Source of the DNA: Phycisphaerae bacterium
Lineage (GTDB): Bacteria; Planctomycetota; Phycisphaerae; Phycisphaerales; Phycisphaeraceae
NCBI GenBank assembly: GCA_030426385.1
Contig: JAUHYI010000012.1
Location: 1 to 64,000 of the forward strand
Direction of reading: 5' to 3'
Length of the DNA: 64,000 nt
The notes under the pieces: generated by a model
Databases searched by the model: none
Seen by the model: the letters and a program-made list of their open reading frames with translations, nothing else
Told to the model about the DNA's origin: nothing
Shown: positions 11,279 through 39,210 of the stretch, piece after piece
Position numbering within the stretch: position 1 is the stretch's first letter
How the letters are laid out: each line of letters opens with the position of its first letter
Made by a program: the position numbers and the translations under genes

Positions 11279-11767
11279 ATGCCCACTACCTTAGAAGGCC
11301 CCTGGCAAGCTGGCGATCTACGCATCGCCATCGTTGTAAGCCGTTTTAATGATTTGCTGACCGAGCATATGGCCAGCGAAGCGGTCAATACGTTTCGACG
11401 CCTGGGTGGTGATCCGGACAATGGTGAGACGCTGGTGGTGGTGCATGTGCCCGGTAGTTTTGAATTGCCGATGACCGCACAACAGTTGGCACTGACGAAT
11501 AAGTTTGACGCGGTGATCTGCCTGGGGTGTGTGATTCGTGGCGAGACGGATCACTACGATCATGTGGTGGCGCAGACAGCCAAGGGCATTCGCGAAGCGG
11601 GGATGGCCACGGGCGTGCCGGTCATCTTTGGTGTGCTGACAACCGACAACGTCGAGCAGGCCCTGAATCGGGCAGGGGTCAAGATGGGGAACAATGGGAA
11701 CAAGGCGATGCTGGCCGCGGTGGAGATGGCGCATCTGATGAAACAAATCCGTGAGTTGGCGACATGA
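11279..11767 (+). CDS. ribH: 6,7-dimethyl-8-ribityllumazine synthase
   Basis: Penultimate step of riboflavin synthesis. It condenses 5-amino-6-ribitylaminouracil with 3,4-dihydroxy-2-butanone 4-phosphate and works as a multimeric cytoplasmic shell. Family motifs are IAIVVSRFND, VVVHVPGSFELPMTAQQL, CLGCVIRGETDHYDHV with the catalytic His, and PVIFGVLTTDNVEQALNRAG, with a closing GNKAMLAAVEMAHLM. The product is 162 residues from ATG 11279. A TTG at 11261 would add six residues (MSVTNP). It overlaps nusB by 4 bp, the common ribH-nusB pair. Confidence 0.95.
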   Translation: MPTTLEGPWQAGDLRIAIVVSRFNDLLTEHMASEAVNTFRRLGGDPDNGETLVVVHVPGSFELPMTAQQLALTNKFDAVICLGCVIRGETDHYDHVVAQTAKGIREAGMATGVPVIFGVLTTDNVEQALNRAGVKMGNNGNKAMLAAVEMAHLMKQIRELAT

Positions 11768-20644: not shown

Positions 20645-21034
20645 GGGGCCGACCGGTATCGACCGGACAGGGAAGGTTGCTCGTCGCACGTCGAGGTCGC
20701 ACGTTGGCCTCGTTAAACCACGTGCACCAATTTAAATGCCAACGATAGCAATATCGCTGGTCGCATTGGGTTTGATAGCCCAGTGCGCCTGGCTGCCTAA
20801 TTTATTAGGTACCAAACGTTTGCTTGCCGCTTGTCCGCGGTGACAGGCAAATGTCATAATCTGCGGAATCGCCCCTCGCCGACGCCTTGGCGTCGAGGGG
20901 TTAAAAAATACCCAGGCTGGATCAAACTCATGCTGTCGCTGGCAGGGGGTTGATCGAGATTAAATCAACGACTATGCGTGTAGAAGCGTTCAGCTGACTG
21001 TCTCGGCACGGGGGTTCGAATCCCCCCGGCTCCA
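20645..21034 (+). ncRNA. ssrA: Transfer-messenger RNA (tmRNA)
   Basis: Ribosome-rescue RNA of about 390 nt. The 5' end GGGGCCG pairs with CGGCTCC at the 3' end to give the alanyl acceptor stem, with discriminator A at 21034; CCA is not encoded. The T-arm is GGGGGTTCGAATCCCCC. The tag frame most likely begins at GCC 20738 and ends at TAA 20798-20800. It gives a long 20-residue tag that starts ANDSN and ends PVRLAA, so the LAA-type degron is kept. A hairpin (CCCCTCG..CGAGGGG) at about 20873-20901 fits a pseudoknot. The 3' end from 21006 on is duplicated at 39090 by island insertion; this copy is complete. Confidence 0.95.
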
Positions 21035-21126
21035 CTGTTTACGATGACAAGCATTGGCAGAAATATTCTGCGTATGCCTGAAATCACCAGAAATAGGACC
21101 GCCCAGCTTTTGGGTGGTCCTTTTTT
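21006..21126 (+). repeat. Left attachment repeat (attL): tmRNA 3' end plus terminator
   Basis: These 121 bp are identical to 39090-39210. They contain the last 29 nt of ssrA, a 61-bp spacer and the intrinsic terminator GGACCGCCCA..TGGGTGGTCC with T-run (21096-21126). Weaker similarity continues for about 75 bp further right. The 18-kb interval between the two copies is the integrated island. Confidence 0.92.
21096..21126 (+). terminator. Intrinsic terminator of ssrA
   Basis: Stem GGACCgCCCA with TGGGtGGTCC, loop GCTTT, followed by six T. The same terminator is repeated at 39180-39211. Confidence 0.9.
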
Positions 21127-21270: not shown

Positions 21271-22299
21271 TAGAGCGTTTTCACCTTTTCCCTAGCGTGT
21301 ATCCGCAGTGCCAGAAGAAGTGGATCGCGTCGGTCGGGGTGATGGTGTCCATCAATCTTTGCGTGTCACCCCACAGCTCTTTCACGTCGCGATGTCTGGC
21401 CGAACGCAGGCTCTGCTTGAGCTTGGAAAACGCCAGCTCAATCGGGTTGAGGTCCGGCGAGTATGGCGGCAGATACACCACGCTCGCGCCCGCCGATCTG
21501 ATCGCATGCCGTACCCCCGCCACCTTATGTGAGCTGAGGTTGTCCATCACCACCACGTCCCCTTCACGCAACGTCGGCGTCAGGACCTGCTCGCAAAACG
21601 CCACGAACATATCGCCGTCGATCGCGCCGTCGACCGCCGTCGACCGTCGTCGAACAACGCATGCCATCATGACCCAACGCCGCGATCAGCGTCGTCGTTT
21701 TCCAGTGGCCGTGCGGCACCTTCTCGATCAATCGTTCGCCACGCGGTGCTCGGCCACGCAGTCGTGTCATGTTAGTCTTGGCCCACGTCTGGTCGATGAA
21801 CACCAAGCGATGTGGGTCAAGTCCCAGCTGTTCTAATCGCCACCGGGCGCGTCGCTCGGCGACATCGGGTCGGTCTTGCTCAGCGGCGTGTATCGTCTTT
21901 TTTTGTAAGTGAGTTTGAGTTGGACCAGCGCCTTGTGGATCGCCGACAACGCCACCTCGACGCCGAGGGCGTCACGCAATTCTCTCAGCGTCGCGTCGGG
22001 GGCCTGAGCGACCAACTCGGCAAGCCTGTCACGGCTGAACTTGCGTGGATAATGCCCGCCTTGCCTGGGCCGCAGATCGCCGCGTTCTCGACGATGCTGC
22101 TTGAGCCGACGGACCCATGCCGGGCTGACCGAGTACTTGTGTGCGACCTGCTTGGTCTGCAACCCCGCGTCGCAATCGTTGATCACCCGACGCCGCAGAT
22201 CCATTGAGTATGCCTGTGCCATATCGACCTCCTTGTCGTGAAGCCTATGTCATAACCGATTCATGACCGTGGCGCTAGAGAGAAGGTGGATCCGCTCTA
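21271..22299 (-). mobile_element. IS630-family insertion sequence
   Basis: A 1.03-kb element with terminal inverted repeats: TAGAGCGTTTTCACCTTTTC at the left and the reverse complement of TAGAGCGGATCCACCTTCTC at the right, matching at about 22 of 27 positions. A TA stands at each end, the TA target duplication typical of the IS630/Tc1 group. Removing the element and one TA joins the integrase reading frame exactly (GHSITV to SGKHY), which proves the insertion point. Confidence 0.93.
21281..22222 (-). pseudogene. IS630-family transposase, -1 frameshift type, disrupted by a 10-bp duplication
   Basis: The N-terminal half (from ATG 22222) is the helix-turn-helix region: MAQAYSMDLRRRVINDCDAG, KQVAHKYSVSPAWVRRLKQHRR. 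At a run of seven A on the minus strand (21898-21904) a -1 shift gives the expected continuation KKKTIHAAEQDRPDVAERRA, so this is probably the programmed frameshift used by some members. The DDE domain has VFIDQTWAKTNMTRLRG (first Asp), VVVMDNLSSHK (second Asp) and PPYSPDLNPIE (Glu). Between the first two, a 10-bp tandem duplication (21625-21644, GTCGACGGCG twice on the minus strand) shifts the frame. Removing one copy restores TTVDGAIDGDMFVAF. This copy is therefore probably dead. Confidence 0.88.
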
Positions 22300-22898: not shown

Positions 22899-23786
22899 TC
22901 ATTCGGTAACATCGTGTCCTAGGGCGGGGAATTTTGATTCAAGTATGTGCCTTAAATCGGGGTAGCGAGAGTACACTAAGCGCAGCCAATAAATAATCTG
23001 AACAGCACGAACATATCTTTTGTTTTCGTTCCAATGGCTTTGCACGCCTATTAAGATTGCGTGATCACAACTCCACAGCTTGTCCGGATCAAATCCGTGA
23101 TCCCACAGCCCACCCCCGCTCATTCCGTATGGATCGGGTAGTGAATACGGCTGACCTGTATCCACTCGGGTTATATCGTTCTTTGGATAGTCGAGTAGGA
23201 TATCAATGTCTCTGTCTGATGCGGGTTGTGTTTGTTCCCAAATTTCATTTGTATCTTTAAAAGGGAAACTATTATAACCAAAAAATCTAGAAGTCACGCC
23301 GACAACTTCGCCAGTAGAGTCTTTATGTTTCTCCTTTAACACGTTCGGCAATCCAATTAAACATGCCAATCGATCACTTCGGCCCGGTCCACATATATGG
23401 ATACGATCAACACCGCATGGCTTCTTCGTAGATGAACTTAAAAAACATGATCGGTTCAACTCAATGATACCTACATCAGGATTTTTGTTGGGATTGCAAT
23501 GCGCGGCTATAACACAAGAATTGTGATTTTTAACGTGTTTAACATTATCGTCGAGTATCCAATAGCGAGATAATGACGCTTCTTCGTCAACGCAATGAGC
23601 TGCTGTACACGCAAATAACCGATTTCCAATTTCTACCAGTGTCGCGCTGAATAATCCGGTATCCAACCAGTCATAGTGATCCTCGCTATCCTTTGTGTTG
23701 AAAATGTCCAATGTAAACTGGCTTAAATGTGCCGATAAAATTTTTGATGACTCTTGCGCAATTTTTATTTTATCTGGATTTTTCAC
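22899..23786 (-). CDS. Trypsin-like serine protease (island cargo)
   Basis: The 295-residue product has no signal peptide, so it is probably cytoplasmic. The chymotrypsin-fold triad is visible and intact: His64 in FACTAAHCVDEEA, Asp104 in NPDVGIIEL and Ser223 in DPYGMSGGGLWD, the GxSGG oxyanion motif. The rest (ICGPGRSDRLACLIGLP, AILIGVQSHW) fits the second barrel. Codons are much more AT-rich than in the core genes. It sits in the island between the broken integrase and the CRISPR locus. Cytoplasmic trypsin-like domains are frequent effectors in bacterial conflict systems, so a defence role is possible but unproven. No adjacent sensor gene is seen. Its 3' end overlaps the integrase remnant. 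Confidence 0.8.
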   Translation of the reverse strand: MKNPDKIKIAQESSKILSAHLSQFTLDIFNTKDSEDHYDWLDTGLFSATLVEIGNRLFACTAAHCVDEEASLSRYWILDDNVKHVKNHNSCVIAAHCNPNKNPDVGIIELNRSCFLSSSTKKPCGVDRIHICGPGRSDRLACLIGLPNVLKEKHKDSTGEVVGVTSRFFGYNSFPFKDTNEIWEQTQPASDRDIDILLDYPKNDITRVDTGQPYSLPDPYGMSGGGLWDHGFDPDKLWSCDHAILIGVQSHWNENKRYVRAVQIIYWLRLVYSRYPDLRHILESKFPALGHDVTE

Positions 23787-24444: not shown

Positions 24445-25919
24445 GCTTCAATGGGGCCATGCGTGTTAACGCATGGAAAGGAAGCTCAGGGTCGCGGGTG
24501 AGGTTGCCCATTAACGCTTCAATGGGGCCATGCGTGTTAACGCATGGAAAGATAGGCCGCGAGATATGGGCTCCAGAGGACCAAAACGCTTCAATGGGGC
24601 CATGCGTGTTAACGCATGGAAAGTTCACCGTGGTCAACATCCTCGCCGACAACGGCGCAGCTTCAATGGGGCCATGCGTGTTAACGCATGGAAAGTTGAT
24701 CGGGTTTTACGTTTCCCGATCGTTATGAAAGCTTCAATGGGGCCATGCGTGTTAACGCATGGAAAGAATGGCGAGGCATTTTCGGCCCCCTGCCAAGTGC
24801 TCGCTTCAATGGGGCCATGCGTGTTAACGCATGGAAAGTGGCTGCCATGCTGGGGGCAGTTGGCCACATATCAAGCTTCAATGGGGCCATGCGTGTTAAC
24901 GCATGGAAAGTGCGGCCTGGAAAACCGCATCACTCACGGAGGAGAGGCTTCAATGGGGCCATGCGTGTTAACGCATGGAAAGCGAAAACCCACGCAAGAT
25001 ACGGTTGTCTTCAGGACCGCTTCAATGGGGCCATGCGTGTTAACGCATGGAAAGGAGGCGCAGCGATTGCTAAACGCCGAGAAGTCGCGGCGCTTCAATG
25101 GGGCCATGCGTGTTAACGCATGGAAAGCCTGTGGCGATTGTGGGCCTGCTGCGTGTTTGGTCAGCTTCAATGGGGCCATGCGTGTTAACGCATGGAAAGT
25201 AGGGGTTGGGTGACCCCCAGCCCCTAAAATGCCAGCTTCAATGGGGCCATGCGTGTTAACGCATGGAAAGATGAAGCTCTACGCCACCGCCATAATGCGG
25301 CGGGTTGGCTTCAATGGGGCCATGCGTGTTAACGCATGGAAAGTTTCCCCGGCATGGATGTAACCAGGCTCCGGACTAACGCTTCAATGGGGCCATGCGT
25401 GTTAACGCATGGAAAGGGAGACGCGGCGGCCTGTTCGCCGTCCTATGCACGAGCTTCAATGGGGCCATGCGTGTTAACGCATGGAAAGCAACCCACCCCA
25501 AACGGTGCCGAAGCCCGAGCGATGCTTCAATGGGGCCATGCGTGTTAACGCATGGAAAGATGACTACATGGCCCGCAACGTGCTGGCCCAATTTGCTTCA
25601 ATGGGGCCATGCGTGTTAACGCATGGAAAGGGGCAGGATCGCTATACGAAGCCAACCGGATAATAAGCTTCAATGGGGCCATGCGTGTTAACGCATGGAA
25701 AGGTCGACCGACATCGACTACAACGTATACGAATGCGACGCTTCAATGGGGCCATGCGTGTTAACGCATGGAAAGTTCCTCCACAAAACCTGCTAAGCCA
25801 CTGTCTAGCTAGCTTCAATGGGGCCATGCGTGTTAACGCATGGAAAGTACTTAGTCAGTTTGGATTAGAAGCGGGAGAAACTGGCTTCAATGGGGCCATG
25901 CGTGTTAACGCATGGAAAG
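24445..25919 (-). CRISPR. Type I-G CRISPR array, 21 repeats and 20 spacers
   Basis: Twenty-one 36-bp repeats, all identical by eye, with 20 different spacers of 35-37 bp. On the plus strand the repeat starts GCTTCAATGGGG, then has a perfect 8-bp hairpin CCATGCGT, loop GTTA, ACGCATGG, and ends AAAG. Read on the minus strand it ends CCCCATTGAAGC, giving an ATTGAAGC 8-nt end that resembles known type I crRNA 5' handles. I therefore assign transcription to the minus strand, the same direction as the cas genes, with the leader at 25920-26154. No degenerate terminal repeat is present to confirm this. First repeat 24445-24480; last 25884-25919. Confidence 0.96.
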
Positions 25920-26154
25920 AGCGAGTGCTGTAACCGTTTGGGGGGCCGTGGGATCGAACGGGGCTAGCGAGAGGTTGGAGGTTGTGGGGGGGAATAGACT
26001 GTGGTTCATGAGGAAAGCGGCTCGTAAGTATTGACTTGTCAAAGAGCTCGAGAGGGTACTGGGATTATCTTACCACTGGGGTGCTCGATGGGGTGTTCGA
26101 GGTTGGATTTAAGTTTGAGTTTTAAGTCTGATTTTTTAAGGCTGAATTTTGTGT
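25920..26154 (-). promoter_or_regulatory. Presumed CRISPR leader between array and cas2
   Basis: A 235-bp gene-free stretch, AT-rich toward cas2 and G-rich next to the array. It contains the palindrome TTGACTTGTCAA (about 26032-26043), which offers a TTGACA-like -35 on the minus strand, but no good -10 at the right distance. Leader status is inferred from repeat polarity and cas2 adjacency. Confidence 0.5.
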
Positions 26155-26463
26155 TCATACGATGAACGTTGCGGTCATGGGATTGTACGCTTTGCCCACG
26201 GTTTGGATCAAGGTTTGGCAATCGGTTTGTGCGGCTCCAAGATCGATGAGCATCACCTGATCTTCGTTGTGGTGGACGATGTCGGTCAGTGTGGCCATCA
26301 GGTCGATGCGTTCACGTTTGGTCAGTTGGCAAACGAATACGCTGAACTGGACGTGGTCGCCATAGTCGTGGAGTGTTTTGAAGATGTGGTTTCTGCGTTT
26401 ATCGTTGCTGACATCATAGGTCACGACGTAGTGTCTTCGGTTGGTGGTGGGGTTGTGATTCAT
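26155..26463 (-). CDS. cas2: CRISPR-associated endonuclease Cas2
   Basis: The 102-residue ferredoxin-fold protein of the spacer-integration complex; two Cas1 dimers clamp a Cas2 dimer. The first strand HYVVTYDVSNDKRRNHIFKTLHDYGDHVQFSVFVCQL carries the family Asp (YDV) and the YG..VQ.SVF wording. It ends IQTVGKAYNPMTATFIV. Its start overlaps the cas4-cas1 stop by 4 bp. It is the last gene of the operon, next to the leader. Confidence 0.95.
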   Translation of the reverse strand: MNHNPTTNRRHYVVTYDVSNDKRRNHIFKTLHDYGDHVQFSVFVCQLTKRERIDLMATLTDIVHHNEDQVMLIDLGAAQTDCQTLIQTVGKAYNPMTATFIV

Positions 26464-28289
26464 CGTGTGACGATCTCCGGCAGGTTGGGGATGTCTTTTC
26501 TAAGCCAACGGGAGAACAGTCGTGCTTGGAGTTTGATCATCGATCGCCAGGAACAGCGATAGCCGAAGAGCGGGTGGGTGACGAGTTGTTGTAGCCTGTT
26601 TTCGTAGGCCCGGATGAAATTTTTTCGACCATCAGGTTTGAGTATGCAGCCTGCTTTGGAGCGGGTGAAATGCGAGGCGCGGGTCATGCTGGTATTGATG
26701 GCAGTGATGACGGCTGAGTCGACAATAACGGGTCGAAATGGTTCCATGAGATCAAGCGACAGGGCGGGGCGACCGTGTCTGGGTTGATGGTACATTCCCC
26801 ACCAGGGATCAAGACCTTCTGCCAGTAGTGCGACGGTGAACTCCTTGGCAAGCAAGGCATAGCCAAAGGAAAGCAATGCGTTGACGGGGTCTTTGGGTGG
26901 GCGACGGTTTCTGCCGTTAAAATCCCAGGTCGCGTCGAAATCTTGAGGCTTGAGCATGTGACTGAAGTGTCGGAAATAGTGTGCGGCCACCATGCCTTCG
27001 TGGCCGAGCATTGAGGGGATATCGGTCACCTCAGGTAACCGGTCAATCAATTGCTGCATGTCAGCAAGAGCGCTATCGAGGGATGCAGAACTGTTGGCAT
27101 TGCGGCGAAGCATGGTGCGTTGATTGTTTGCTTTGGACGCGACGAGATGGCGGGCGAATTGTAGTTTGAGATTGGGGGCCTGGGCTACCTGAAATTGTGC
27201 GGCCCGATCGAACGCATTACGCAGGTTGATGCCATGGGTGATGCCGTGGAACCAATGGCTCATGGAAAGATGGACGATAGGGATGCCCGCTTCACAGAGT
27301 GTGTGGATGGCTTGGGCGGAGATGCCGATGTTGCCGCAGATGACGAGGTGGCTGATGTCCTTGAGCTTGACGGTGTTGAGTGTTTGGCTTTGCATGCGAA
27401 CGGTAATGTTTTTGCTTGATTTTCCGATGAAAGCGCCCTGTTTCTGGATATAGAACGGTTGCGCTTCGTCACGTGCCGGATAGAGCCGGCGGATAGCGTG
27501 GTCGTGTTTATCGTTAGCAATGGAATCGATATTGGGGTCGAGATAGGTGTTGAGATCTGCAGCACTATCAGAATTAATATCTGTGTCAGTGATCGCAAGT
27601 GGGCGTTCCAATGCCATCGCAGTCAACGTTTCATCTGGCAGGCAGATGCCGTTGAGCGAACAGCCGTGACATTTGGGACTGTTTTCCAAAGGTGGGGGCA
27701 GACGAGTTGCGAGGGTGGCTTGTTTGGCCTGATCGAGAAGTTCGAGCGTGCGTTGTTCGAGTTCAGGTGTGAACAAGATCGGGACACGTGTGCGTGACGT
27801 GGCGAAGTAGAGGAAGCCGTGGTCGCAGTGATAACCCTGTTCACGCAATAGCAGGCCTTGTGCCATGAGTTGGATGCGTTCAGGTTCCCATGAACGTTGC
27901 GGATTGTCGGGTACCCGGCCACGTTTGGTTTCGACGGGTACCGCATCGTTGTCGGCCATGCTGACCAGATCGAGCTTGGCAGTGATACCTAATTCTGTGC
28001 TGGTCAATGGTATTGATCGGACGATGGTGGGTGGTTCGTCGCCATCGTCGGATTTATTGTCCGCGATCGATTTTGAAGTGATTTCGCTGGAGTCCGCATT
28101 GGCATCTGGCAGCACGTGATCCAATTGATCGACGCGTCGATGCACGCGTTGGCCATCGCGTGTGTAGTGATTGTCTTCCCAGCGTCCCTCGACATGCATT
28201 AGATGAAACAGTCGCGGGCAATAGGCATATTCATTGAGCATACGAAGGGGGAGCAGATCGTTCGCAGTCAGATCGTTAGTTTGAATCAT
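26460..28289 (-). CDS. cas4-cas1: Cas4-Cas1 fusion, PAM-selecting integrase
   Basis: The 609-residue fusion is typical of type I-G/I-U loci. Residues 1 to about 230 are Cas4, a RecB-like nuclease with an Fe-S cluster: Cys24 in EYAYCPRLFHL, PVETKRG as the nuclease Glu-x-Lys motif, and the C-terminal cysteines CHGCSLNGIC. An insertion rich in D, N and S interrupts both the Cas4 part and the linker. From about 280 onward is Cas1: FYIQKQGAFIGKSSKNITVR, LGHEGMVAAHYFRHF with the active-site Glu, and WWGMYHQPRHGRPALSLDLMEPFRPVIVD with the His and Asp ligands. All catalytic residues appear intact. Fusions of this kind are known to select PAM-containing prespacers. It is 23 bp after csb2. Confidence 0.95.
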   Translation of the reverse strand: MIQTNDLTANDLLPLRMLNEYAYCPRLFHLMHVEGRWEDNHYTRDGQRVHRRVDQLDHVLPDANADSSEITSKSIADNKSDDGDEPPTIVRSIPLTSTELGITAKLDLVSMADNDAVPVETKRGRVPDNPQRSWEPERIQLMAQGLLLREQGYHCDHGFLYFATSRTRVPILFTPELEQRTLELLDQAKQATLATRLPPPLENSPKCHGCSLNGICLPDETLTAMALERPLAITDTDINSDSAADLNTYLDPNIDSIANDKHDHAIRRLYPARDEAQPFYIQKQGAFIGKSSKNITVRMQSQTLNTVKLKDISHLVICGNIGISAQAIHTLCEAGIPIVHLSMSHWFHGITHGINLRNAFDRAAQFQVAQAPNLKLQFARHLVASKANNQRTMLRRNANSSASLDSALADMQQLIDRLPEVTDIPSMLGHEGMVAAHYFRHFSHMLKPQDFDATWDFNGRNRRPPKDPVNALLSFGYALLAKEFTVALLAEGLDPWWGMYHQPRHGRPALSLDLMEPFRPVIVDSAVITAINTSMTRASHFTRSKAGCILKPDGRKNFIRAYENRLQQLVTHPLFGYRCSWRSMIKLQARLFSRWLRKDIPNLPEIVTR

Positions 28290-28312: not shown

Positions 28313-29980
28313 TTATGTGGCGGGTGTTGTTGATTCGTGATTCAGCGATGTGTCGGGTACAAATAATCCCAAACCATAATGGCTGGCATAACCCAGTGTG
28401 ATTGGCCCGGTCACGGGTTGGTCGAATGTCAGTCTGATACCAAACGCCATGTTGACGGGCGGTTGTTGTTTATCATCTGGGCGTGTGCGGATGAATCGAA
28501 GCAGGCGACGCTCAACGAGCTCATCGTTATCGATCTTCTGGATGGTTGTGGGCGTGGGAAAGGGTTGGCCATCCGAAGTTTGTCGCGTTTCCAATTCGGT
28601 TCGAATCTGATTTTCCAAGCTGTTTTTCCCGTCTTTTTTGACAAAACGTGCGGGTATAAAAGGCGTGAGGCTGACCCATGTGCGTGATTGTTCCAGGATG
28701 GGCACGCGCTTGCCGTTGCGTTGTTTGAGTTGCCTGCGAAAGTCATCGAGTGCACCGAATCCGACACAGGTGGTGGCTAACGGATTGGTTTGGTTTTTTG
28801 TATAGGTCCATCGCTGACGCATGATCGCTTGCTGGGCAAGGCTATCGAGTTTCATGGGCGCGTAAATGATGATGTGATCGAGTCGACCATCCTCATCAAG
28901 ATCGAGCGGCAGGTAGTGGGCATGTTTATGATTGGTTTGAAGTGGTTTTTTTTGCTCATCCATGCCGGTTAGGGCAGGGCAAAATGATTGGCTAAGTTGG
29001 CTAATCACCGCTTTGTGTAGCAGATCAGCCTGCGGAAGACAGCGGATGAACGAAGGTAGTCCTGTGTTGGCATGCGACGTATCAGAAGCGAGGTTGATGA
29101 GCGCCGCTTCAACGTGGGCGGCCTCTCGTATGGGACTGGAGGGTCGCGATGGTTTACGCTCGAGTGTGCCAGGGGGCTGTGTGTATAGTTTGTACTGTGT
29201 GCCGGGCGGCTGGCTCCAGCCATGGTCTTGAAAATCAGACGTGTCGCTGAGCAGACATGTGAGTAAGTCGATCGGATAGATCGCTTCGATTTTTTTTGTC
29301 GCTTTGGCGATTTGTGATTTGCTGGGTTTTTTGCCTTTCTTTTCAGCGGTTTGTTGTAGTTCTAGCAATGCTTGCTGGACATGTTGTTCGATGACTGACT
29401 GACGCCATGTCGCATAATCATGAGCAGGCACTGGGCCCAATATTGAAACCTGTTGCTTACCAAAATCGATGGGCGACGATGGTGCATCATCGCTGGGTTC
29501 GCACCAGGTAGGGTCTGATGGCGTATCCTCAATCAATGTACCGCTGACCCAACTCTCCGCTCGACCCAGGTAGCCAAGATCGGACACCAGTTGTTCGAGC
29601 AATTGTCTTTCTGATTCGCTTAGTTCCACGTCGTAATGAATCAGTAACGGATCGTGGTTGGATGCTAGACGTATGAACGCGTCAATGACCTTGGTGGTTT
29701 TTTGGTTTTTGCCTTCCACGTATGGCATGTAATGACGGGTGTGGGCAATTTGTCCTGCGGGCAATTTGTAGCGGGGCCACGTCGCAGCAAGTTTGTCGAT
29801 GAGCGATCGGGCATCTTCGGGAACTTGCGGCCAATGATGCTTGTTAAAACCGGTGGCCAACAACGCGCGCAGCAGTCGCCACGGACAAGGCGGCCACTCG
29901 ACTTGGCCTTCGTTGACATGAAGGCCCCAAGGCGTGGCATGGTATCGACCCGCTGTAAATTTCAATTGAATCGTCGGCAT
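28313..29980 (-). CDS. csb2: Type I-G Csb2 (Cas5-Cas6 like) protein
   Basis: The 555-residue product matches the Csb2/GSU0054 family by start (MPTIQLKFTAGRYHATPWGLHVNEGQVEWPPCPWRLLRALLAT), the SWVSGTLIED region and the C-terminal half (HAHYLPLDLDEDGRLDHIIIYAPMKLD, then RTWVSLTPFIPARF, and PITLGYASHYGLGLFVPD). In type I-G this protein is regarded as a fused Cas5-Cas6. It caps the crRNA 5' handle and processes pre-crRNA. The conserved HYLP and the final GHASHFGLGLF-type segment (YASHYGLGLF) may include the catalytic His of the Cas6 part; I infer this. It lies 12 bp downstream of csb1. Confidence 0.93.
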   Translation of the reverse strand: MPTIQLKFTAGRYHATPWGLHVNEGQVEWPPCPWRLLRALLATGFNKHHWPQVPEDARSLIDKLAATWPRYKLPAGQIAHTRHYMPYVEGKNQKTTKVIDAFIRLASNHDPLLIHYDVELSESERQLLEQLVSDLGYLGRAESWVSGTLIEDTPSDPTWCEPSDDAPSSPIDFGKQQVSILGPVPAHDYATWRQSVIEQHVQQALLELQQTAEKKGKKPSKSQIAKATKKIEAIYPIDLLTCLLSDTSDFQDHGWSQPPGTQYKLYTQPPGTLERKPSRPSSPIREAAHVEAALINLASDTSHANTGLPSFIRCLPQADLLHKAVISQLSQSFCPALTGMDEQKKPLQTNHKHAHYLPLDLDEDGRLDHIIIYAPMKLDSLAQQAIMRQRWTYTKNQTNPLATTCVGFGALDDFRRQLKQRNGKRVPILEQSRTWVSLTPFIPARFVKKDGKNSLENQIRTELETRQTSDGQPFPTPTTIQKIDNDELVERRLLRFIRTRPDDKQQPPVNMAFGIRLTFDQPVTGPITLGYASHYGLGLFVPDTSLNHESTTPAT

Positions 29981-29992
29981 GTTTTATCTCGC

Positions 29993-33218
<3,226 letters not shown>

Positions 33219-33222
<4 letters not shown>

Positions 33223-35993
33223 GCCTGGGCTCCTTCTCGATCAAGTAGCGGGTCTGGTGATTGCTGGGGTTGACTTGAAACATGAATGTCGGCTGCACGT
33301 AACAGGCATTCGAAATACGCCAGCACGAATGGCCCGTGTTGTTGTTTGAGTTGATGCACACGATCGCTCCAGCTTGGCCCGTAGCGTGATGAAAGTCCTA
33401 TCGTCGCAGTTTCAAGGTGCAAACTGAGGGTTGGTATGCCGCAGAGCGTGCCGTTGTGAGAATAGAGTTGCGTCGACGGTAGTGTGTCATCTTCGCGTAC
33501 GCCCAAGATTGGTTTGTCGGTTTTTGTATCGCCGCGCAGGAAATATTTCTGGTCGTGGGATGTGTGTGGCCAGCTTAGGCGAACCTTGCCGTGGTGGGTG
33601 CATACGAGGTAGACGAGCAGGTTGAATTGCTGGGCGTCGAGTGCGTTGAGTTCATCCGCAAGTGGACAGTTTTGCAACGACTCGTGCGTAGGCATTGGTT
33701 TTAGAACGCCCATTTCAACCAATTGTTGGTAAGGGCCCAGTAGCGCTTCGTGGTTGGGATGGGTTTGGTGCAACAGTTCGAACAAAGCCAGTGTGCTGGC
33801 AAGCTCATGTCGAAAACCACGGCGATAATGGTTGGTTTCGACATCCATGCAATACATGTTTTTGAACGAACACCATGCTTCGGATGGTGCCTTGGCAAGA
33901 TGGGTTTGTTCGAGATTTTCGAGTCGGTTCGCAATGCAATTTTGAAAGGCCAAATGCGCTTTGCCCCAGTCATGAACTCGGCCTGCCAGGTTAAACAATG
34001 CCTGTTGGTCTTCGGATAGCACTAATCGTTTGGTGAGATGATTTAAATGGTTGGCCACTTCCAAGCCATGCGTGGCGATGGTTTGCCATTGGTTTGGCGT
34101 TTCGCTTTGGTCGTCACGTCCTTGAGCAGCATCGGCCGTGGCCGCGGTGTCAGGGGTGAGAGGGGTATCGGGGGCATGGCTATCTGTTTGGAAACCGGTA
34201 TGATGTTTGCCGGGTTTTTCGCCGGTGTAACCGCGTGTTGTGTCGTAACCACCCCATGCTTTGTTGATGACGATCGTCTGGCCCGGATAGCAATCACTGC
34301 GGTTTAATTTTTGCCAGTGACCGTCCACATAATTCCATGTCCAGGCGCGACAATTTGGTTTTAGTTTATTGTTATCAAACAACCATTTCTGCGCTTTATA
34401 AATAGGCACCGGGCATAGCGCATTGCGCTGCGGGCGATATTCCTTGTCAGGCGACTTCGCGTCGTCAGGCAGATCAAGCCAACACGCCATGATGTCACGC
34501 TCTTGGCCACTGCGAATAAAACGACTGATGTCCAGATCAGCACCGGTCAGGTCTGCGGTGGTGTCGAATAATTCATCGCTCTCTTTTTCAGTCAGCAGAT
34601 GCAATGGTTCGTAGGGATATAACGTCTTCAGTTGTTCTGGCTTGTGCGCTTTTAGTTCCGCTTCAAATTTTTCCAAACTGGCAATACCCATATCATCCAG
34701 TTGACTCAGCGCTTCACGAGCTGCGTTTAATGTCGGCAGTGCGTAGGGCAACGCGGCTTTATCCTCGCTCGCATCGCGATCGATCACGATCACCTGAGCG
34801 CTGCCGCCGTATCGGGCAGCTCGTCCTGCCCGTTGGACCAGACTCGGCCAAGGCGCGAGTTCGGTGATCAAGGTGGTGGCGGATATATCCACTCCTGCTT
34901 CGACCACTTGCGTTGCGATCAGGATCATGTGCGTGTCGGGGTTTTGGCAATGGGCTTTGTTGAGAAAATTGTCGACCCAGTTTTCGCGTTCCATCCCACG
35001 AAATCGGCTATGAATCAGGTGGATTGTCGGTTTGTCTGTGGCTTTTGACAGTTGCTTGTTCAGCGCGGCATAAACGTCGGTGGCTGTATCCACGCGATTC
35101 ACAATCGCCAGCGTCACACGTCCGGCCTGGGGTTGCGGTGTGGCGTTGTGATGTGCTTGCAGTATCGCATCGGCCAGTTGTGTCGATTGTTGGTCATCTT
35201 TTGCGGGAATACACTCAACACGAACGGGTTTGCGTATGTCCCACAACGCACCTTGGCGTTGGTCGGCTGGTATACAGGTCTGTGAGTTGGCCAACGGTTC
35301 GACCCATGATTTTGAATCCACCGTTTCCAACCACTGGGGTTGCAACGTGGCGCTCATCCACCATGTGAAACAAGGTCGCGTTACTGGTGTTGCGGATGTT
35401 GCAGGGGTGGCGGAGTGTTGTACATACTGTTGGCGAAAACTTTGCAACTGGACACTCGTGGCCAGTCCTACATCCATGAGTTGCACTTCGTCCATCACCC
35501 ACAAACAATCGTGATTGAGCAAGCCATAGTCCATGGGCCAGCGTGCCCGACTGGCGGCATAGCCCCGGTTCAATGCCCGCGACAACAGCATGTCCTGCGT
35601 ACCGATGATGATCGCGGGTGTGTGAGGCTGCAAATGCCATGCGTCAGCCTTAGCTCCGCCCATGAGTAGATGTACGTTTACGCGCGGCTGTTCATTCGTT
35701 AATTGTGCGCTGACCGTCTTGGCCAGGTGCAATGCTTCGGCATATGTCTGCTCTGCCAACACACGCATGGGCAGGCACCAGACCAACCGCATCGGCCACG
35801 CGTGATTCTGTTGTTGAACACGGTGGTACAACCACGCGCCCAGCACGCCATCGGTTTTTCCTAGCCCGGTAGGAATCCGAATCAGGCGATTGTCGCATGC
35901 GTCTGGCGTTGCCAATTGGGCTTGCCACGGATGCGGGGTATGCCCTTGCGTGGTCAGTGTCTTAAAAAATGAGGTGTAGGTATCCGTACTCAT
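33219..35993 (-). CDS. cas3: Cas3 helicase-nuclease with C-terminal HD domain
   Basis: A 924-residue signature type I protein that unwinds and degrades target DNA after Cascade binding. The helicase is N-terminal: Walker A IPTGLGKTDG (about 40-49), motif Ia LPMRVLAEQ, DExH-type box WVMDEVQLMD, then MSATL and the second RecA domain with STQLADAILQA and QVVEAGVDISA, QRAGRAARYGG. The HD nuclease is C-terminal, from about residue 650, with LFNLAGRVHDWGKAHLAFQ as the His-Asp metal motif and VCTHHGKVRLSW. This helicase-HD order is the reverse of E. coli Cas3 and fits type I-G. All motifs are intact. It is the first certain gene of the operon. Confidence 0.95.
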
Positions 35994-36052: not shown

Positions 36053-36607
36053 TCATTGGGATGCAGATGATGCGTTAGCGTCGGGATCAATTGGCCGAGC
36101 GGTTGTCTGTGGGATGGGGAGAGTGGGTGGGGGGGCTGATAGTTGGCGTTGCAACATTCGCCGTGCATTGAACAGGCTGATCGCCTTGCCCGCGTCGGCC
36201 GCATGCTGGCATCGGGTGGCCACTTGTTCGAGACATTGTTTGTGAAACCCATGGAAATCGACCCTGGAAATTGCGTTGTCTGTCTGATCGGATGTATCTG
36301 CGTGGCGGCCACGGGACGGCATTGTTTCAGAAGCACCCCCCCCCACCCTCACCCCCACCCTCACCCCCACCTCCCCGACTCCTCCGCCTCCCCCGGAAAC
36401 GCCCCCGGAAGCGTCTCCGGTAATCCCCTCCGCCCCCTCCGCCCCCTCCGCCCCCTCCGCCCCCCCAGTCCCCCCGCTAGTGCTTCCGAAACAATCCCTC
36501 TGGTCGCGAGTCCCACCATCCCCATTCGCGTGATGCGTCGGCTTATCAGCCATCAGACCCTCAATGGTCATTATGTCATGACGGCCAAGGCATCCGTGCC
36601 AAGGCAA
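36053..36607 (-). CDS. Doubtful repeat-rich protein upstream of cas3
   Basis: An open frame of up to 184 residues ends 60 bp before cas3 on the same strand. The middle is a low-complexity Gly/Ala/Glu/Val stretch (GAEGAEGAEGAEG, VGVRVGVRVGGG) written by 9-bp and 12-bp tandem repeats at about 36334-36475. The ends look more ordinary (FHGFHKQCLEQVATRCQHAADAGKAISLFNARRMLQRQL). I do not recognise a family. It could be a real leader gene of the cas operon, or an accident of the C-rich repeat. The start is unclear (Met20 MADKPTHHANG possible). Confidence 0.3.
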   Translation of the reverse strand: MPWHGCLGRHDIMTIEGLMADKPTHHANGDGGTRDQRDCFGSTSGGTGGAEGAEGAEGAEGITGDASGGVSGGGGGVGEVGVRVGVRVGGGASETMPSRGRHADTSDQTDNAISRVDFHGFHKQCLEQVATRCQHAADAGKAISLFNARRMLQRQLSAPPPTLPIPQTTARPIDPDANASSASQ

Positions 36608-36803
36608 CGCGATTCAATGTAGCAGGGGGTGTGACAGGCTCATGTCGGTGTGTTTTCAAAATTGAAAAAATCCTCGATTGAGATGGGGGCCAAAAATTCG
36701 TGGGATCGTCATAAAGGCGGCATGACGCAAAGCATTGGCATGATTGCGGTTTGCACAATGTGTGTCGATATATATGGAACTCAATCGAAATTGAGGTTAT
36801 AAT

Positions 36804-36876
36804 TAACCGCGGTGGGATTCGAACCCACAACAAACCGTTTAGGAGACGATCGCCTCTGCCGTTGGGCTACGCGGTC
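36804..36876 (-). tRNA. tRNA-Arg (anticodon CCU)
   Basis: The 73-nt gene folds well. Acceptor GACCGCG pairs with CGCGGTT (first pair G-U) and discriminator is A. The D-arm has a GGC 3' side. The anticodon stem ATCGT/ACGGT has loop CTCCTAA, anticodon CCU, reading the codon AGG. Variable loop is TTGTT. The T-arm is GTGGG TTCGAAT CCCAC. CCA is not encoded. It is inside the island and has its own strong promoter. AGG is typically a rare Arg codon, which matters because CreT toxins of CRISPR loci are known to act on rare Arg tRNAs. Confidence 0.95.
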
Positions 36877-36883
36877 TAATTTT

Positions 36884-36919
36884 TAGTGGCCCATGCTCCA
36901 ACATGGGTCACTTTTTTTG
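36884..36919 (+). terminator. Terminator-like hairpin in the tRNA leader region
   Basis: On the plus strand GTGGCCCATG, loop CTCCAA, CATGGGTCAC is followed by seven T. It would stop plus-strand transcripts. On the minus strand the same hairpin lies in the 5' leader between the tRNA-Arg promoter and the tRNA. Confidence 0.6.
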
Positions 36920-36929
36920 TTGTCTATGG

Positions 36930-36958
36930 ATATTACCGGTTATAGCAATCAATGTCAA
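36930..36958 (-). promoter_or_regulatory. Strong sigma-70 type promoter of tRNA-Arg
   Basis: The minus strand reads TTGACA (36953-36958), a 17-bp spacer, then TAATAT (36930-36935). This is one of the best consensus promoters in the window. It points at tRNA-Arg about 45-50 bp downstream. Its -35 box touches the candidate crRNA target at 36956-36990. Confidence 0.8.
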
Positions 36959-36993
36959 CGAATTTGCATCATATAAATTTAAAAACTAGCGAA
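36956..36993 (-). promoter_or_regulatory. Candidate crRNA-like target site (partial protospacer with TTC)
   Basis: On the minus strand the site reads TTC followed by GCTAGTTTTTAAATTTAT. The pseudo-spacer of the mini-array at 37167 begins GCTAGGTTTTGATTTATC. Positions 1-5 and 7-10 match and position 6 differs, the position not read in type I seeds. Allowing one gap, about 19 of the first 25 bases match. TTC fits a TTN-type PAM. The site covers AT-rich DNA with a TATAAA (36972-36977) usable by a plus-strand transcript. It also touches the -35 box of tRNA-Arg. Confidence 0.55.
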
Positions 36994-37130: not shown

Positions 37131-37278
37131 ACGCATTTATTCGAATACGCATGGCCCTATTGAAGTGCTAGGTTTTGATTTATCAGATACTTCCATGCGA
37201 TTTTTCCGCACGGGCATCCGCTCGTGCGGCCCCATTGAAGCCTCGGGATGACAGCCAGTCGTCCCGAGGCTATTTTTT
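37131..37278 (+). ncRNA. CreA-like degenerate CRISPR mini-array RNA
   Basis: Two degenerate copies of the array repeat flank one 35-nt pseudo-spacer on the plus strand. Pseudo-repeat 1 (37131-37166) keeps ACGCATGGCCC.ATTGAAG (18 of the last 20 bases); its 5' half is lost. Pseudo-repeat 2 (37202-37241) keeps TTTCC at the start of the hairpin and GGCCCCATTGAAGC at the end (14 of 14). Its stem has become CCGCACG/CGTGCGG with a 10-nt loop, so base pairing is kept although the bases changed. The pseudo-spacer length equals that of the main array (35-37). A 14-bp terminator hairpin starts inside the last repeat bases. This looks like a crRNA-type RNA under selection. An alternative reading places a repeat 5' half at 37190-37199 (CTTCCATGCG), giving a 23-nt spacer. 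Confidence 0.75.
37240..37278 (+). terminator. Intrinsic terminator of the mini-array RNA
   Basis: GCCTCGGGATGAC, loop AGCCA, GTCGTCCCGAGGC, then TATTTTTT. The stem is 14 bp with one G-U pair. It begins in the last two bases of pseudo-repeat 2. Confidence 0.9.
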
Positions 37279-37287
37279 CGAGATTTT

Positions 37288-38301
37288 TCACGATTCATAA
37301 ATCGCCACCGTAGCCTTAGCCATTTCGTAGACGCGCTGTGCTAATTCCGGGGGTTGGATGACGTGGCAATGGGGGCCCATCTCCAGAATCCAATGGACGA
37401 TTTCATCAAGGCCAGCGATCTGGCAGATGAAATCGATACTGCCATCGTCGTGATAGATGATCTGCTGGGTGGGGTGCCATTGGGTGTCGCTGATCGTTTC
37501 CGCATAGTCGGCATCAAAATGCAGACGTATGTCATAGATCTGTTTGCCACGGACCATGCGCCACGCCAGCCCGAGATGTTGTTGAATGTCGAAGTCGTCG
37601 GGGATGACATAGGCGGTTTCAGTCAAATTGATACGCGTGAAACGATTGAGCTTGAGCGTGCGAAGATCATCGCGATCGCTGCGCTGGCCAATGACGTACC
37701 AGGCACGTTTGCCGAAGTACAGGCAATAGGCCCGTAATTCGAAATGGTTGGCCGGTGTGTCTAATGGCGAGGCGGCGTCGAGCGGGTCATGCGATGGACT
37801 ATGCACCGCATCGTAGCTGCATGTGAGGACGCGACCGGTAGCGATCGCCTGCTGGATAAGGCTGTAAACGTCAGTGATGCCGTCGGTACCGACATTGCGT
37901 GCCAGGTCGATATGAATTTGTGATTCGAGTTGAGCCAACTCACGTTGCAGGCCATGGGGAATGACATTGCGGATCTTGGTGATTGCCTTGGCTGCTGCTT
38001 GCAACATAGGGACTTGCTCTCTGCTGGCCGCATGTTGTGCCAATGAGCATAGAGCCAGTGCCTCATCAAATGTCAATTGCAATGGAGGCAGAAAAAATGA
38101 TTTGTTGATGGTATACGCATTGCGATCGGCATCATACGTGCAAGGTACGTTCAATTCTTTAAGCGTTTGCAGGTAGCGGTGAATTGTTCGCTTGGTGACC
38201 TTGAGCGTGGCTGCGAGTTGTGACGCATTGCCCGCGTGTCCTGATTGGATTAACAATATCAGACGCAATAACTGGTCTAACTTCGTTAGCGATGCTGCCA
38301 T
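37288..38301 (-). CDS. WYL-domain transcriptional regulator
   Basis: A 337-residue DeoR-like/WYL protein. The N-terminal helix-turn-helix is SLTKLDQLLRLILLIQSGHAGNASQLAATLKVTKRTIHRYLQTLKELNVP. The WYL domain (about 150-240) includes LTCSYDAVHSP, HFELRAYCLYFGKRAWYVIGQRSDRDDLRTLKLNRFTRI; the signature Trp-Tyr-Leu reads WYVIG. The C-terminal WCX-type extension follows (VRGKQIYDIRLHFDADYAETI, ILEMGPHCHVIQPPELAQRV). WYL regulators bind nucleic-acid ligands and are recurrent CRISPR-Cas regulators (for example sll7009 of Synechocystis). Here it is divergent from the mini-array RNA, whose terminator ends 10 bp from its stop. That places it as the likely controller of cas, array or mini-array. Confidence 0.9.
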   Translation of the reverse strand: MAASLTKLDQLLRLILLIQSGHAGNASQLAATLKVTKRTIHRYLQTLKELNVPCTYDADRNAYTINKSFFLPPLQLTFDEALALCSLAQHAASREQVPMLQAAAKAITKIRNVIPHGLQRELAQLESQIHIDLARNVGTDGITDVYSLIQQAIATGRVLTCSYDAVHSPSHDPLDAASPLDTPANHFELRAYCLYFGKRAWYVIGQRSDRDDLRTLKLNRFTRINLTETAYVIPDDFDIQQHLGLAWRMVRGKQIYDIRLHFDADYAETISDTQWHPTQQIIYHDDGSIDFICQIAGLDEIVHWILEMGPHCHVIQPPELAQRVYEMAKATVAIYES

Positions 38302-39089: not shown

Positions 39090-39210
39090 GCACGGGGGTT
39101 CGAATCCCCCCGGCTCCACTGTTTACGATGACAAGCATTGGCAGAAATATTCTGCGTATGCCTGAAATCACCAGAAATAGGACCGCCCAGCTTTTGGGTG
39201 GTCCTTTTTT
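39090..39210 (+). repeat. Right attachment repeat (attR)
   Basis: Identical over 121 bp to 21006-21126. It holds the last 29 nt of ssrA and the full terminator, without the rest of the tmRNA gene. It marks the right boundary of the island. Confidence 0.92.

Follow-up and report, generated by a model that had tools for sequence, protein, structure and literature searches.

A degenerate two-repeat CRISPR unit beside a planctomycete type I-G locus as a candidate source of a promoter-directed guide RNA

Type I-G is the least studied type I subtype, and the locus described here raises the question of what a degenerate two-repeat CRISPR unit does when it stands apart from the main array, upstream of the cas genes. 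In the window, by which we mean the whole 64,000-nucleotide stretch of Phycisphaerae DNA that was analyzed, this unit (37147-37271, + strand) consists of a handle, a pseudo-spacer of about 35 nt, a second repeat, and a terminator, and it is divergent from I-G cas genes that all lie on the - strand. Its degenerate repeats stand outside the array with a handle kept, its guide has a PAM-flanked target at a promoter, and its cognate effector locus is intact, three marks of Cascade-guided regulatory mini-arrays of the CreA/CreR class, whose members also yield a Cas6-processed RNA that is bound by the effector and brings about effector-dependent repression. We propose, with a probability of about 85%, that the unit is a mini-array for one crRNA-like regulatory RNA that would load the I-G effector and repress the promoter at 36958-36930. 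The first-pass annotation had suggested a CreA-like or Cas-regulating RNA, and PAM-flanked targets in all eight loci described below support that suggestion, with the antitoxin role of CreA as a candidate function. Whether the regulated output is cargo beside the promoter, as in CreTA and CrePA, or cas3 and the cas operon, as in CreR, stands at about equal odds.

A mini-array on an island in ssrA

The type I-G cas set in the window is complete (Csx17/Cas8g, Csb1, Csb2, Cas3g, and Cas4-1), and matches to TIGR02621, TIGR04113, and TIGR02165 bear out the subtype first assigned to it (Table 1). The main-array repeat, CTTTCCATGCGTTAACACGCATGGCCCCATTGAAGC in crRNA sense, is present in 21 exact copies with spacers of 35-37 nt. 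Beyond that array, scanning the window with the 14-nt end of the repeat revealed no further copies of mini-array quality.

Table 1. Coordinates of the I-G locus, the two-repeat unit, and its target in the window
Feature	Position	Strand	Remarks
Main CRISPR array	24445..25934	-	21 repeats
cas4-cas1 fusion and cas2	26155..28289	-	
csb2 (cas5-cas6)	28313..29980	-	TIGR02165; predicted processing enzyme
csb1 (cas7)	29993..30937	-	PF09617
cas8g (csx17)	30934..33222	-	TIGR04113, E 3.6e-199
cas3g	33219..35993	-	TIGR02621, E 1.8e-214
ORF MADKPT..., between targeted promoter and cas3	36053..36550	-	C-terminal part conserved in L004
Extra tRNA-Arg(CCU)	36804..36876	-	first gene downstream of targeted promoter
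11-pair hairpin	36885..36912		just after predicted start of targeted transcript; terminator shape on + strand
Targeted promoter, TTGACA-17-TAATAT	36930..36958	-	toward tRNA-Arg and cas3; 10/12, best promoter-like site in 2.5-kb region
Target protospacer	36955..36990	-	guide match at positions 1-5 and 7-10; rG:dT wobble at 11
Target PAM, TTC	36991..36993	-	I-G PAM is TTN
Pseudo-repeat 1, 3' part	37147..37166	+	ACGCATGGCCCTATTGAAGT; 18/20 identical to array repeat end
8-nt 5' handle of pseudo-repeat 1	37159-37166	+	ATTGAAGT
Pseudo-spacer (guide)	37167..37201	+	GCTAGGTTTTGATTTATCAGATA..., ~35 nt; matches target at 36990
Repeat-like segment in last part of pseudo-spacer	37190-37199	+	CTTCCATGCG
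Pseudo-repeat 2	37202..37241	+	10-bp stem 37206-37229, CCCC, and ATTGAAGC; fold z -2.9
Predicted Csb2 cut in pseudo-repeat 2			before ATTGAAGC
Intrinsic terminator of unit	37239..37279	+	14-pair stem 37239-37271 and T tail
HTH-WYL-WCX regulator	37288..38301	-	PADLOC WYL models; convergent with unit

Most of the anatomy first described for the unit held up. Pseudo-repeat 2 ends in the exact last 14 bases of the array repeat, GGCCCCATTGAAGC (37228-37241), pseudo-repeat 1 (37147-37166) has kept 18 of the last 20, and a terminator with a 14-pair stem follows directly 3' (37239-37271). The stem of pseudo-repeat 2 is indeed rewritten yet paired, but the length of 7 bp originally given to it was too short, as CCGCACGGGC-ATCC-GCTCGTGCGG forms 10 bp with one G-U pair. 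Once this longer stem is counted as repeat, the spacer comes to about 35 nt, as claimed. From handle to handle the period is 75 nt in the unit, versus 71-73 nt in the main array. The 5' stem arm is missing from pseudo-repeat 1 in the window and also in L004 and L043, two of the related loci described below. In the unprocessed RNA, CTTCCATGCG could pair with GCATGG of pseudo-repeat 1, and the guide may fold into a hairpin. A promoter search of the 2.5-kb region found no consensus promoter for the unit itself, and Rfam models returned only tRNA, a tmRNA fragment, and one chance-level match between 24 and 40 kb.

A segment of 121 bp, comprising the tmRNA gene's 3' end and terminator, occurs twice as a perfect direct repeat, at 21006-21126 and 39090-39210. 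The two copies are the attachment sites of an island in ssrA, about 18 kb long, on which the I-G locus in its entirety and the unit are located, a setting that an addiction function would suit. Toward the left end of the island lie pieces of an IS630-like transposase (21281-22222) and a 178-aa tyrosine recombinase remnant (PF00589; 22275-22811, - strand) that is probably a broken integrase. A neighboring 295-aa open reading frame (22899-23786, - strand) has the look of a trypsin-like protease domain, with catalytic-type motifs recognized by eye and no Pfam match.

Guides and targets in the window and in other I-G loci

The target in the window, written as PAM and protospacer, is TTC-GCTAGtTTTTa, and the PAM of type I-G is TTN (PMC9638904). 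Csb2 is known to cut 4 nt past the stem and leave an 8-nt handle, and the order CGG-CCCC-ATTGAAGC in pseudo-repeat 2 fits the cut position established by I-G biochemistry (PMC9638904). Pairing at positions 1-5 and 7-10 agrees with the seed of two archaeal CreA RNAs, which require positions 1-5 and 7-11 (PMC8501985). At 11 of 15 scored positions, the match in the window is the weakest among eight loci; against 5,086 mock guides drawn from the same region, the guide places among the best 8. A search of the host genome found no PAM-flanked site that matched better.

According to the mechanism that we propose, the transcript would be cut after pseudo-repeat 2 by the Cas6 domain of Csb2, and its 5' end would arise at pseudo-repeat 1, either through a cut or because transcription begins there. 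The mature RNA would then comprise the handle ATTGAAGT, the guide GCTAGGTTTTG..., and the CCGCACGGGC hairpin, and after loading it would lead the I-G effector to the TTC-flanked site at 36990-36955 beside the -35 box. Because pairing is only partial, with a seed of positions 1-5 and 7-10, binding would be expected to occur without Cas3 attack, and the bound effector may block RNA polymerase at the promoter (36958-36930). CreA guides in I-B and I-F likewise block promoters through partial pairing that does not trigger Cas3 (PMC8501985, PMC10097628).

Seven other I-G loci, from Planctomycetota and Myxococcota, contain units built in this way, each with a guide of its own and a target to match. 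Relatives were gathered by a Csb1 search that covered the family, the phylum, the class, and a collection of species-level genomes, and they include one locus from the same family (L004, the nearest relative available), Myxococcales bacterium 68-20 (L070), and Gemmata sp. SKYG68 (L073). In L004 the unit occupies the same place beside an orthologous WYL regulator; its pseudo-spacer is different, and its stem is different but paired (CCGCATAAG/CTTATGCGG). The units of L043 and L035 were found by similarity to each locus's own array repeats, with second pseudo-repeats TTCCGCTCC..GGAGCGGCCCC and TTCCGTGCC..GGCACGGCCCC, respectively, and inspection of L035 revealed a terminator directly 3' of the unit. 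Pseudo-repeats that were absent or randomly mutated in relatives had been named at the outset as grounds for rejecting a function; they are kept in L004 and six more I-G loci, and the syntenic comparison places the unit upstream of cas3 with the 8-nt handle kept and stem pairing kept wherever the stem can be aligned. Across the six alignable loci, 42 of 42 cells of the pseudo-repeat 2 stem are paired, using 9 additional pair types, and this level of pairing was never reached when the 3' arms were shuffled 5,000 times, in line with the original view that compensatory change in the stem reflects selection. The 8-nt handle persists at pseudo-repeat 1 and is often lost at pseudo-repeat 2 (L004, L035, L043, L198, and L073), a pattern that would follow if the 5' handle came from pseudo-repeat 1 and pseudo-repeat 2 contributed nothing but the 3' hairpin.

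A permissive first scan for the ends of repeats returned too many chance matches and was replaced by a search with each locus's own 14-nt repeat end and then by handle, seed, and PAM together. When 67 distinct cas3-upstream regions were searched for [AG]TTGAAG followed by a guide with a PAM-flanked target, six regions were recovered (the window, L004, L035, L043, L070, and L073), and 60 shuffled handles recovered no loci. In another 12 regions, drawn from the class, L191 and L198 were found, for a total of 8 of 79 I-G loci. Relaxing the search to two handle mismatches plus a stem yielded additional loci in roughly the numbers that shuffled handles gave (1-4 loci each), and weak candidates such as L103 were therefore left out of the count.

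A TTN PAM lies beside the target in 8 of 8 loci. In addition to the site in the window, the targets are TTA-TAGAAaTAaAGtTTTGTT (L004), TTC-AGATTaATTG (L035), TTC-TCGGCaAGAAAaAGAAG (L043), TTC-AGGTGATTaCGaGGGGC (L070), TTG-GCAGGAGCGATaGCG (L073), TTA-GTTACTTGGTGaGG (L191), and TTA-TAGTTTCAGGAAAgGCGGTTC (L198). The units of the window, L004, L035, and L043 had already been identified, through synteny or the similarity of their repeats, when the guides were first tested, and L070, L073, L191, and L198 were selected by the guide-target match itself. For each of the former four, the best guide match falls between the unit and cas3 with TTN in front, and the real guide ranks within the top 6 of the mock guides in L004, the top 2 in L035, and the top 2 in L043. 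The type I backbone flips out the bases at positions 6 and 12. Within positions 1-12, the mismatches of the same four loci sit at 6 and 12 (7 of 8 cells there versus 3 of 40 elsewhere, p 1.2e-5), a statistic confined to these four because the search biases it for L070, L073, L191, and L198. Guides differ even between the window and L004, yet each suits its own target. As guides change with the fit to a local target kept, and as mismatches fall where the effector does not read bases, this strong comparative evidence suggests that, in nature, the I-G effector serves as a programmable repressor.

Targeted promoters and their possible outputs

The target in the window runs into the -35 box of the promoter, and it also abuts the -35 box of a consensus promoter directed toward cas3 in L035 (TTGACT-17-TAATAT) and L073 (TTGACA-17-TAGTAT); in L191 it is just downstream of a TTGACT-16-TACCAT promoter. 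In the window, L004, L198, and L073, the promoter is followed by a strong hairpin that would have the shape of a terminator if read from the other strand. Target and cas3 are separated by about 570-1000 nt in all eight loci (574-997 nt). Within this interval, L004 encodes a 67-aa protein and L198 a homologue of it; L035 has a gene for an HNH protein followed by a 14-pair terminator, L043 and L191 encode sigma-like proteins, and L070 and L073 contain only the unit itself. No protein gene stands directly at the targeted promoter in the window, where the hairpin and then the tRNA-Arg(CCU) are the first features, and no CreT-like mini-ORF with a good Shine-Dalgarno sequence was seen there by eye.

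The host has another tRNA-Arg(CCU), at G000:C14:29412-29485. The extra gene is not a copy of it, being divergent; its closest family matches are tRNA-Lys genes (81%), and phage matches are weak. It is conceivable, if rather unlikely, that the I-G effector and its guide keep the extra tRNA-Arg(CCU) silent and free it once the effector disappears or is inhibited, and that sister loci apply such a switch to an HNH nuclease, sigma-like factors, or small proteins. Such a CRISPR-controlled tRNA would mean that type I-G carries a general switch for effector status with exchangeable cargo. A tRNA-Arg(UCG) is also found about 500 nt upstream of cas3 at L047:7633-7708, beside no recognizable mini-array; with only the window and L047 carrying a tRNA-Arg before cas3, a general tRNA theme is unsupported. 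The small proteins downstream of the targeted promoters in L004 (14613-14813) and L198 (4470-4697) belong to an uncharacterized family of about 70 aa (xYVxIGxPxDQLPY...LRKxxxLP). The protein was set aside as a candidate toxin, as the family is widespread in the class (22 of 150 genomes, often inside longer open frames) and has no match in the family libraries searched.

Readings in which the unit guides nothing fare poorly. Degenerate repeats, and the lack of a unit in most I-G loci, are what a functionless remnant of a decayed array would leave, but a remnant is barely credible given that, across divergent loci, stems are rewritten and still intact, the handle persists, targets are flanked by a PAM, and mismatches fall at positions 6 and 12. 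A structured RNA or decoy by which Csb2 or the effector is titrated, after the manner of the solitary repeats called Racrs (PMC10651486), would suit the ability of pseudo-repeat 1 to pair with downstream CTTCCATGCG and bury the guide. PAM-flanked matches in eight loci, with their mismatches at positions 6 and 12, are not what a decoy would lead one to expect, and we regard this reading as highly improbable.

Among guiding roles, a module of the CreTA or CrePA type would have the RNA repress toxic or defensive cargo that is freed when the effector is lost, through loss of the island or through an anti-CRISPR, and in the window this cargo would be the structured leader and the extra tRNA-Arg(CCU). 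This role, which we hold tentatively at somewhat under an even chance, draws on the locus-specific cargo at the promoter (tRNA-Arg, HNH nuclease with terminator, sigma-like factors, and small proteins), on the integrated island, and on the median gap upstream of cas3 of 836 nt with a unit versus 168 nt without (p 0.004), a crude comparison involving long open frames. In the CreTA of Acinetobacter I-F, too, the toxin mini-ORF is divergent from creA (PMC10097628). Such a module is harder to reconcile with a small-protein family that is common elsewhere, with sigma factors and a tRNA that are not typical toxins and are candidate cargo only, and with the lack of a CreT-like mini-ORF in the window. 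Autorepression of the CreR type, already reported for I-B, I-E, and V-A (PMC13131331), would instead make the targeted promoter a cas-operon promoter with a long leader, and cas expression would rise when crRNAs or anti-CRISPRs take the effector. The target is upstream of cas3 in 8 of 8 loci, and the recognizable promoters point to cas3. L035 alone has a cas3-strand terminator between target and cas3, after the HNH gene, and the other seven loci have none. The shared direction and the seven loci lacking terminators keep control of cas expression plausible at not quite fifty-fifty, but the 0.6-1 kb of unrelated cargo, the L035 terminator, and the separate promoter (TTGGAA-16-TATAAT) that L198 has immediately ahead of cas3 speak for control of the cargo.

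Known crRNA-like regulators and the neighboring WYL gene

In CreTA the repressed CreT component is a toxic small RNA, in many cases with a mini-ORF that contains rare codons. Unlike CreTA, the unit is accompanied by no recognized CreT mini-ORF, and its cargo is a tRNA, an HNH nuclease, a sigma-like factor, or a small protein. CreTA has been reported for I-B and I-F (PMC8501985, PMC10097628). The CreA RNAs of Haloarcula hispanica and Halobacterium hubeiense (I-B) and of Acinetobacter (I-F) share with the unit two divergent pseudo-repeats, one pseudo-spacer, and an 8-nt handle (PMC8501985, PMC10097628), as well as a partial PAM-flanked match to a nearby promoter, a location at the cas genes, and a terminator after pseudo-repeat 2. 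The unit differs from CreA in its I-G affiliation, Csb2 stem-loop repeats, TTN PAM, and position upstream of cas3. CreR, known from I-B, I-E, and V-A, has in common with it a mini-array guide aimed at a promoter upstream of cas genes (PMC13131331, PMC12948488), whereas here the subtype is I-G, cargo lies in the 0.6-1 kb that separates the target from cas3, and in one locus this interval includes a terminator. CrePA, in which the repressed gene encodes a protein toxin, resembles the proposed function of the unit in that a guide RNA would repress a nearby gene, with a protein product in most loci. The typical CreP is a KilA-N protein that acts on FtsZ (PMC12737573), and family searches found no cargo that fits this description.

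With crRNA-like regulators already known in I-B, I-E, I-F, and V-A, the I-G unit appears to be new by the literature found. A 2023 survey by Shmakov et al., which reportedly covers CRISPR-derived regulatory mini-arrays with stand-alone repeats aimed at cas or cargo promoters, lay outside the literature search, and that search found no described I-G example. With the eight guide-target pairs, gene control by crRNA-like RNAs would reach type I-G, in loci of Planctomycetota and Myxococcota, and the cargo that lies between target and cas3, the spare tRNA-Arg and the HNH nuclease among it, would represent candidate effector-guarded genes.

Orthologues of the WYL regulator are convergent with the unit in both Phycisphaeraceae loci (window 37288-38301, L004:15164-16153), and WYL-like genes are found near cas3 in many other I-G loci. 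An inverted repeat of approximately TGTGACA-N6-TGTCACA lies upstream of cas3 in the window (36625-36650), in L004 (14521-14545), and in L035 (about 11445-11465); it is a possible operator, perhaps for the WYL regulator.
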